A DNA stretch of 64,000 bases from a candidate division LCP-89 bacterium (GTDB lineage: Bacteria > Electryoneota > B3-LCP), in the NCBI GenBank assembly GCA_025774555.1, contig JALGVT010000020.1, positions 1 to 64,000 of the forward strand, written 5' to 3'. The translations under genes were made by a program, and so were the position numbers. The notes beneath the pieces were generated by a model. It was not told the origin of the DNA, did not search any database, and saw nothing but the letters and a program-made list of their open reading frames with translations. This document shows positions 1-50,453 of this stretch, one piece after another (within the stretch, counting starts at the first letter, position 1; every line of letters starts with the position of its first letter).

Positions 1-129
1 AACGGCTGGCGGGATGCAGGTGTGCATGAGGTGACTTTCGATGCGACAGACCTATCATCCGGTATATACTTCTATCGAGTTGAAGCAGGAAAATTCCAGG
101 CGGTCAGGAAGATGGTGCTGGTCAAGTAA
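1..129 (+). CDS. 3' end of a secreted protein with C-terminal sorting/FlgD-like domain (partial)
   Basis: Frame 1 reads NGWRDAGVHEVTFDATDLSSGIYFYRVEAGKFQAVRKMVLVK*, a typical T9SS type-A-like CTD ending; stop at 127-129. Confidence 0.8.
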   Translation, partial: NGWRDAGVHEVTFDATDLSSGIYFYRVEAGKFQAVRKMVLVK

Positions 130-163
130 AAAGGTAAAAGGCAAAAGGTAAAAGTAATAAGGG
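129..163. repeat. Heptanucleotide tandem repeat (AAAAGGY)n, intergenic
   Basis: aaaaggt/aaaaggc/aaaaggt/aaaagta/ataaggg read as consecutive 7-mers directly after the stop codon. Confidence 0.75.
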
Positions 164-212: not shown

Positions 213-1751
213 ATGGCACGGTATCGTAAATATCTGTTCACGGTTCTCTGTTCACGGTTCACCGTCTTCTGTCTTCTGTTTACCGTTTACTGTTTACCAT
301 CCTTTGCACAACAGGAATACGAGATCACCATAGAGACAACTCTGGGAGATACGACGGAGACCTTCTGGCTGCAGATTCCCGCTATGTATCAACCAACAGA
401 ATCCTGTCCGCTGCTGATAGGTTGGCATCAGTGGGGCGGCAATCACCTGGAAATCAAATATCAAACCGACTTCGATTCCATCGGTAATGCCAGGGAATGG
501 ATTGTGGCATGCCACCATGGAGCATGTGGCACGCACTGGAACAACCAGCCCACGCAATCGCACGTTGTCGATATGATCGCCTGGATCGAGGACTACTATG
601 CCGTCGATACTGAACGGATCTATATGGTCGGATCATCCATGGGCGGCGCGGCGGCTATGATCTTTGCGAACAATCATCTTGATCCTGATAGACCAATGGT
701 GGCTGCCGCCGCATCGATGTCAGGCATACAGGATTGCGAAAGACGTTTTTACGAACAGGGCATCAACAACAGCATGATTGCCAGCTTCGGCGGCACGCCT
801 GCGGAAGTTCCCTTTGAATATCACCGGAATTCCGCCATCTACTTTGATGACTACTCCGAAAGCATGCACTATAACGCATCTCACCTGCCGCTCTATTTGA
901 CCTTCGGGCGCGCCTGGACAGATTCCATCTGGCGCAGGCATGCCGAAGATCTTTACGATGTGATGGTGGATATTTCGGATACGGTGGTGATTTACGAATC
1001 AGGTCTTGCCGGGCACGGCTGGACAGGCTGTGAAGAAGAGCTTATCTGCGATTTTTTCGAAAATTTCACGGCGAACAGGTATCCTCAGGAGATTGAAATA
1101 AACGCTGACCAAGAAGGAGACTGGTATTGGGCGGATATAACCATGCGCGATCCAGTGGGATCGTTTGCCATGTTCAGCGGGACTGTAAATACAGCCTCGT
1201 CGCAGTGCGAATTCACCATGACCTGTAATGTGGCGTCTGCTTCGCTTAACCTGCAATCTGTCGGCTTCACATACCCGGCAGACGCTTTTTACTGCCAATG
1301 GAATATCCTGGATGGAGAACCCGCTCAGTTGCTTTTCGAAGACCTTCCCGGCGAACCATTTGAAATCAGAAAAAACAATCTGATATACCACGATTGGTCT
1401 TACAATCCGACAGATTCGACTCTGACTCTGGATGGAGAAAGCAGTGGTTTCTATTCTGTTTATCTCGACTATTGGGCGGCGCCGCGCTATCCAATAAAAT
1501 TGGAAGCTCCGCCTTTTACAATCAACGGAACCACAGAGACCGGTATAAACTATCAGCTTGCAGCATCTGGGATTTTCAGTTGGAAACTATATAACGCATT
1601 AGGTCGAAAAGTTTGCTCGAATACACCTGCATTATCACACAAAGGGTACGATAGTATCATTCTGCCGCCCGGTTTATCAAGCGGGATTTATATTATCATT
1701 TACCAGTTGAATGAATCACAAGGTGCATACAGAGTAGCTTTTATGAAATAA
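213..1751 (+). CDS. Secreted alpha/beta-hydrolase (esterase/PHB-depolymerase-like) with C-terminal sorting domain
   Basis: 512 aa; hydrophobic N-terminus, MVGSSMGGAAAM nucleophile elbow (GxSxG), C-terminal LSSGIYIIIYQLNESQGAYRVAFMK. Confidence 0.75.
   Translation: MARYRKYLFTVLCSRFTVFCLLFTVYCLPSFAQQEYEITIETTLGDTTETFWLQIPAMYQPTESCPLLIGWHQWGGNHLEIKYQTDFDSIGNAREWIVACHHGACGTHWNNQPTQSHVVDMIAWIEDYYAVDTERIYMVGSSMGGAAAMIFANNHLDPDRPMVAAAASMSGIQDCERRFYEQGINNSMIASFGGTPAEVPFEYHRNSAIYFDDYSESMHYNASHLPLYLTFGRAWTDSIWRRHAEDLYDVMVDISDTVVIYESGLAGHGWTGCEEELICDFFENFTANRYPQEIEINADQEGDWYWADITMRDPVGSFAMFSGTVNTASSQCEFTMTCNVASASLNLQSVGFTYPADAFYCQWNILDGEPAQLLFEDLPGEPFEIRKNNLIYHDWSYNPTDSTLTLDGESSGFYSVYLDYWAAPRYPIKLEAPPFTINGTTETGINYQLAASGIFSWKLYNALGRKVCSNTPALSHKGYDSIILPPGLSSGIYIIIYQLNESQGAYRVAFMK
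234..296 (+). repeat. Heptanucleotide tandem repeat (CYGTTYA-like, 9 units) inside the signal peptide coding region
   Basis: ctgttca cggttct ctgttca cggttca ccgtctt ctgtctt ctgttta ccgttta ctgttta; encodes 7-aa periodic LFTVLCS/RFTVFCL/LFTVYCL. Confidence 0.9.
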
Positions 1752-49719: not shown

Positions 49720-50453
49720 TCCTTACCCCTGGGCGCTTCGCCGGTCTGCTGTTTCTTGAGATTTTCCTGAACCTGTTTTTCGTCGATCTGAAGCGCGTTC
49801 AGGAGGCGTTCAGCGTCTTCGACTGACATGGAATCGGATTGAGCCTGTTGTTGTTCCTGCTGTTGTTCCTGTTCCTGATCTTCCTGCTGCTCTTTTTGTT
49901 GTTTCTGCTGTTCTTGCTCTTGCTGGTCTTGCTGCTGCTGATCCTGTTGTTCCTGTTCCTGCTCCTGCTCGTTCTGTTCCTGATCTTCATCGGATTTATC
50001 GCCTTGCTGCTGTTGCTGCTCTGGAGGATTCTCTACCAGATGCTGAGCGATTTCGAGATTATGCAGATAATCGGCTTGACCTGGATTGATCCGCAGAGCA
50101 GCTTTATAAGCCTCAAGCGCTTCTTTGTATTTCTGCCCTCCAACCAGCGCATTTCCGATATTGTACAGAGCATCCGCGCTGAGGAGACTGTCTGAACTAC
50201 CTAAGGTGGTCTGGTAAAACCCTCCCGCTTCATCGAATTTCTCCAGAGCCTGAAAGATGTTGCCCAATCCGAATGCGATCAAGGTCGAATCACCTTCATC
50301 TTCCAGCGCTTCGAGGTAATTGATAAGCGCTTCTTCATACTGACCTTCTGCAAAGAGTTTCTCCCCTGCGCGAGCTTTTGCCCTCCAGTTTGCCTGCGCG
50401 GATACTGCCGTTAGGCAGAATAGCAAGATAATTGTGATATACCTGCTGATCAT
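49713..50453 (-). CDS. batC: BatC-like TPR protein with poly-Gln/Glu linker
   Basis: 246 aa; TPRs (LYNIGNALVGGQKYKEALEAYKAALRINP) followed by EQEQEQQDQQQQDQQEQEQQKQQ tract; operon context. Confidence 0.83.
   Translation of the reverse strand: MISRYITIILLFCLTAVSAQANWRAKARAGEKLFAEGQYEEALINYLEALEDEGDSTLIAFGLGNIFQALEKFDEAGGFYQTTLGSSDSLLSADALYNIGNALVGGQKYKEALEAYKAALRINPGQADYLHNLEIAQHLVENPPEQQQQQGDKSDEDQEQNEQEQEQEQQDQQQQDQQEQEQQKQQKEQQEDQEQEQQQEQQQAQSDSMSVEDAERLLNALQIDEKQVQENLKKQQTGEAPRGKDW

Follow-up and report, generated by a model that had tools for sequence, protein, structure and literature searches.

Dispersed heptanucleotide arrays as a candidate source of signal-peptide cores: an array-encoded leader in an esterase-like gene of a candidate division LCP-89 bacterium

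The window analyzed here comprises 64,000 nucleotides of contig JALGVT010000020.1 (C84 of genome G000; NCBI GenBank assembly GCA_025774555.1) from a candidate division LCP-89 bacterium. The contig starts within a gene on the forward strand, whose 3′ end (positions 1-129) encodes a T9SS-CTD-like tail ending in KMVLVK-TAA and is syntenic with locus L090 of the related genome G001. An array of AAAAGGT heptamers (126-153; TTTTRCC on the reverse strand, 126-154) adjoins the stop codon of this gene, and its heptamer differs from that of the array at 234-296 described below. Between the upstream gene and the following esterase-like gene lies a forward-strand GC-rich hairpin followed by a T-rich stretch (161-190), which appeared terminator-like by eye and by alignment; such hairpins are also located 3′ of other CTD genes. 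The AAAAGGT array was considered as an inverted partner of the 234-296 array and rejected, because AAAAGGT arrays recur 3′ of other T9SS-CTD stop codons. A 3′ pattern is common to these secreted-protein genes (window 126-154; L097, L100, L101, L102, L104 and L106): CAGCTAT heptamers about 200 nt upstream of the stop, inside the gene, encode AISYQLS (L102 excepted), AAAAGGT heptamers follow straight after the stop, and in several cases a terminator-like hairpin comes next. This arrangement may represent a shuffled C-terminal sorting cassette. Elsewhere in the window, a low-complexity CTG/TTC-rich repeat (49844-49988; Tandem Repeats Finder periods 6-48) probably encodes a repetitive protein segment.

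The gene under study (213-1751, forward strand) encodes a 512-aa esterase-like protein, predicted to be exported, with a signal peptide and an α/β-hydrolase-like domain containing GSSMGG. The product passed the Pfam Esterase model (PF00756) marginally (E=1.4e-4; 22.2 bits against a cut-off of 22), and its relatives in the PDB were 3wyd (LC-Est1C, 9e-12), 4q82 and 9j07. Its C-terminal region resembles T9SS/por sorting tails, which suggests a role in sorting. The leader reads MARYRKY-LFTVLCSRFTVFCLLFTVYCL-PSFA|QQ, and all parts of a Sec (type I) signal peptide were present by inspection. The n-region, MARYRKY (213-233), contains R3, R5 and K6 and is similar to the MRFRN of the G001 orthologue; to judge from this similarity, it was possibly kept from the ancestor. 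The hydrophobic region (residues 8-28) is encoded by the heptamer array (234-296), and R15, translated from CGGTTCA, interrupts it, leaving a 13-residue hydrophobic run, FTVFCLLFTVYCL, between R15 and PSFA|QQ. The c-region and predicted cleavage site, PSFA|Q (297-311), lie outside the array, with Ser at -3 and Ala at -1, and the -AQ ending is common to the orthologues (PAVAQQ in G001, ASAQ in G002). A Sec signal peptide is thus a plausible prediction from the sequence, and export of the esterase would depend on the array-encoded peptide. No ATG, GTG or TTG was found in the open frame upstream of the codon at 213, and no Shine-Dalgarno sequence was visible by inspection before this ATG.

The array consists of nine degenerate 7-mers of the CYGTTYA/CTGTCTT class: CTGTTCA, CGGTTCT, CTGTTCA, CGGTTCA, CCGTCTT, CTGTCTT, CTGTTTA, CCGTTTA and CTGTTTA. 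Identity at a lag of 7 was 42/56 (0.75), compared with 0.17-0.30 at lags 1-6 and 8-13, a value not reached in any of 20,000 shufflings of the array's own codons. This bears out the original prediction that nine 7-mers encode the signal-peptide core, with the translation LFTVLCS/RFTVFCL/LFTVYCL. The units are imperfect: the lag-7 mismatch is 25%, the best perfect stretch is two 14-mers, and Tandem Repeats Finder splits the array into short fragments (233-260, 2.0 copies of a perfect 14-mer; 236-262; 264-279; 278-298).

Orthologues in sister genera are 55% identical to the esterase-like protein. The leader of the G001 orthologue is MRFRNLLLSLLLLPLPAVAQQ, with no heptamer; gene order is kept in this genome, where the upstream gene also ends in KMVLVK and its TAA directly abuts the esterase ATG. 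The array is likewise absent from the G002 orthologue, whose leader is MRTSLLLLFLLPSLASAQ, and farther homologues have ordinary leaders too. Because the sister-genus orthologues carry ordinary short signal peptides devoid of the array, the array is peculiar to the lineage of the window; by parsimony, it arose there and supplied the core.

Arrays of the same class are scattered elsewhere in the window's genome. CYGTTYA arrays were found on contigs C66 (two), C57 and C78, related arrays on C3 and C86, and TTTTRCC arrays in about 15 places. A sample of 464 kb (400 kb in stretches plus the 64-kb window) contained 18 arrays spanning 30 nt or more, compared with none in dinucleotide shuffles; 10 of them were intergenic, although only 11% of the sequence is intergenic, seven were inside genes, and one, that of the window gene, was N-terminal. 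When GTDB genomes were searched for three CYGTTYA units, at least 117 stretches matched, and those listed came from many phyla, including cyanobacteria, Bacteroidota, Chloroflexi, Gemmatimonadota and Acidobacteria. One relative, G015, was unusually rich in CTGTTCA/CTGTCAA-type arrays, with 50 heptad-peptide matches in a single genome (C61, C32, C176, C177, C146 and others). Dispersed, intergenic heptamer repeats have been described in Xanthomonas (GGGAATC) and Nostoc (GGGGA(C/T)T) (PMC4692102, which also cites heptamers of Calothrix), in Beggiatoaceae (TAACTGA; PMC4679880) and in Chloroflexus (GATAGRA; PMC6749651). The window class resembles those of Xanthomonas, Nostoc, Beggiatoaceae and Chloroflexus in being a degenerate seven-base tandem unit, genome-scattered and mostly intergenic, but differs in its heptamer and in that one array of the window's genome codes for the core of a signal peptide. 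Searches of the open-access literature yielded no account of heptamers used in this way, an absence that is weak evidence. A further parallel lies in dispersed repeats located in coding sequence. Rickettsia palindromic elements are dispersed repeats that insert in frame into ORFs and are tolerated there, but they are longer palindromes rather than heptamer arrays, and to our knowledge they do not build signal peptides.

Since 7 is not divisible by 3, a heptamer array encodes one heptapeptide whichever of the three frames is read. This peptide is LFTVHCS for CTGTTCA, LFTVYCL for CTGTTTA, VFCLLSS for GTCTTCT and FCLLPFA for TTTTGCC (in rotation), so that an array of this kind near a start codon provides a hydrophobic core in any frame. 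The reverse strand of a CTGTTCA array contains stops.

Heptamer-encoded leaders, with signal peptides here and in the window gene judged by eye, were found in unrelated genes of other genomes. In Nitrospirota genome G042 (L120), the leader of CbiM (PF01891, 1.9e-53) begins MKIKNSKLKVFILSLFAVHCSLFTETAYA and that of a neighboring gene MKVQSLKLKVKSFFKRLFTVHCSLLTLFFLFTIHCSLFTNTATA; LptE (PF04390) of a Thermodesulfovibrionales genome begins MKLKVKISKLKVESFFKRLFTVHCSLFILFLLFTVHYSLFTLSGC. The leader of LptD (PF04453) in G042 is similar, and that of a TPR protein resembles a lipoprotein leader. A period-7 array occupied the leader region in 13 of 14 LptE orthologues, compared with 0.04% of codon shuffles. 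The LptE leader heptamers vary by lineage (CTGTTCA, CTGTCTA/CTGTTTA, TCTCTGC, TTACTTG and CTTTGCG), and in several genomes the lysine-rich n-region, too, is built from an array, of the AAAGTTA type. Between G041 and G042, the LptE core arrays differ by exactly 21 nt (three units), in frame, and the n-regions by a separate 27 nt. Of the 19 arrays located inside genes in 292 kb of G042, 11 started no more than 105 nt from the gene start, compared with an expectation of about 14% (p=1.4e-5), with genes called crudely as the longest ORF from the first start codon. Two pilin-like genes of G042 (L310, 13544-13643 and 14209-14287) also have heptamer-encoded leaders before the N-methylation motif, and one of the two proteins exceeded the N_methyl cut-off. 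In the LptE leader of G049 (L265), apparent period-8 repeats (GAGCARYA and CTRCTGGG) occur alongside heptamers. A heptad-peptide protein search over the window's phylum returned few N-terminal cases. Two candidates (L229 and L255) were rejected because their arrays precede more likely start codons; six other ORFs with arrays near the start (L134, L145, L154, L155, L157 and L178) were left uncounted because they look over-extended; and L143 and L184, which had no Pfam match, were left out of the verified cases.

Heptamer arrays were also linked to genes of the 23S_rRNA_IVP family (PF05635, a four-helix bundle; S23 hereafter), which were present in 32 of the 41 genomes covered in the survey of the window's relatives. 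Arrays lay on both sides in 20 of 30 S23 loci (L060-L089), compared with 0.022 arrays expected per flank on the basis of more distal sequence at these loci, and the flanks were inverted complements (score of at least 30) in 27 of the 30, compared with 2.9% for mismatched loci. Each locus had its own heptamer. Among 19 Nitrospirota loci (L332-L351), a left array was found in eight, a right array in eight and both in five, with inverted flank pairs in 9/19 compared with 0.6% of mismatched pairs. The heptamer is CYGTTYA at the S23 locus on C66 of the window's genome (L041; 1575-1620, 1620-2000 and 2005-2068). The S23 matches listed for this genome fell on C66, C47, C64, C18 and C31, with none on C84, and no inverted CYGTTYA partner lay beside 234-296. 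When the S23 HMM, which detected 30/30 known loci, was applied to the first 80 of the listed CYGTTYA loci from many phyla, a single locus matched, with the gene 1.9 kb away. S23 is accordingly not supported as the source of every CYGTTYA array, given that 79 of the 80 loci had no match; the linkage is strong when seen from S23, but not when seen from the array. S23 genes together with their inverted arrays resemble a mobile element not yet described, or a hairpin unit of the IVS kind. Searches of the open-access literature yielded no general account of S23 genes flanked by inverted heptamers, which is again weak evidence. In the Coxiella burnetii IVS, which has terminal inverted repeats, GACAGAT heptamers lie 5′ of the S23 ORF in strain-variable number, three versus two copies between strains (PMC4990558). 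The S23 loci of the window's phylum resemble this IVS in having heptamers beside an S23 gene and inverted repeats; the window array, lacking both a listed S23 gene on its contig and an inverted partner, does not.

These observations bear on how the array came to the esterase gene. It could have expanded in place, through slippage during replication of a T/C-rich seed within an ancestral leucine-rich core, with its likeness to the dispersed arrays reflecting only a common preference for similar heptamers. The differing LptE leader heptamers would fit such separate local growth, or equally repeated replacement. However, the window heptamer belongs to the same degenerate CYGTTYA class as the intergenic arrays on C66, C57 and C78 and in many phyla, and the array mixes CYGTTYA with GTCTTCT units, the latter also forming arrays on C86. 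We consider local growth unlikely; the array more probably derives from a dispersed source, through copying or recombination.

The array had originally been proposed to be a phase-variable contingency locus, in which slipped-strand mispairing would add or remove one heptamer, shift the frame and switch esterase export off or on. The unit length, not a multiple of 3, and the position of the array in an ORF near its start agree with this proposal, and heptamer number is strain-variable elsewhere, as in the Coxiella IVS (GACAGAT; PMC4990558) and in hmwA of Haemophilus influenzae, whose promoter (ATCTTTC)n varies within patients from about 11 to 24 copies (PMC8262952). Both the hmwA repeat and the window array are tandem heptanucleotides close to the start of genes encoding surface or secreted products, but the former is located in a promoter at some 11-24 copies, whereas the units of the latter are imperfect and inside the ORF. 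At 0.75 lag-7 identity, recovered by Tandem Repeats Finder only as short fragments, the units are far from near-identical, and the class to which they belong is dispersed and mostly intergenic in the window's genome. Dispersal genome-wide and across phyla explains a period-7 array in a gene that has no switching function. In addition, arrays of the same type encode the leaders of CbiM and of LptE and LptD, and the latter two are poor candidates for switching. Most bacteria that make LPS require LptD and LptE for viability, and this speaks against on/off switching as the usual role of the arrays. Phase variation is thus very improbable here; what stands of the original logic is the frame neutrality of a three-unit change, since an in-frame 21-nt change over evolutionary time is a pattern with support, from one comparison (LptE in G041 and G042). 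That the array is merely an upstream or 5′ leader, with translation starting downstream and no export through it, would suit the missing Shine-Dalgarno sequence and the often intergenic location of such arrays, but is likewise very improbable, because the codons after the array (PSFAQQEYEIT...) offer no in-frame start before the conserved domain, PSFA|QQ aligns with the cleavage regions of the orthologues, and the orthologue leaders are signal peptide-like.

We favor, with a probability of roughly 0.74, the interpretation that a dispersed heptamer repeat has been exapted recurrently as a signal peptide, of which 234-296 is one instance. In the window's lineage, a CYGTTYA-class array would have settled at the 5′ end of the esterase coding sequence, flanked by the basic n-region and the cleavage-site region, and taken the place of the ancestral core or lengthened it. 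Such recruitment would be possible since the LFTVHCS-type output is hydrophobic and stop-free, so that any frame-compatible copy could yield a working core. Selection would then remove any unit number that puts the mature protein out of frame, and surviving length changes would be 21-nt (7-aa) steps. Against this interpretation count Arg15 within the core, the lack of a visible Shine-Dalgarno sequence and the crude gene calls behind the G042 enrichment; against its generality in the window's genome counts the window gene being the single N-terminal case in 464 kb.

A broader possibility, which we regard as tentative and rather doubtful, is that bacteria in general have repeatedly drawn on heptamer arrays to build signal peptides, with S23 and its locus-matched inverted arrays as a mobile source that spreads and renews them. 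Given that the reading frame does not alter the heptapeptide encoded by a 7-mer array, certain T/C-rich arrays would be ready-made hydrophobic cores, and A-rich arrays of the AAAGTTA type could serve as ready-made lysine-rich n-regions, as in MKVKSLKLKVKSF...LFTVHCSLF. Signal peptides evolve fast, and where their sequence originates is poorly known. A frame-independent repeat would offer a simple route by which leaders are rewritten repeatedly; heptamer-encoded leaders were seen here in unrelated genes from two phyla or more, those for LptD and LptE among them. The linkage between heptamers and S23 would give the uncharacterized, widespread 23S_rRNA_IVP family a genomic signature.
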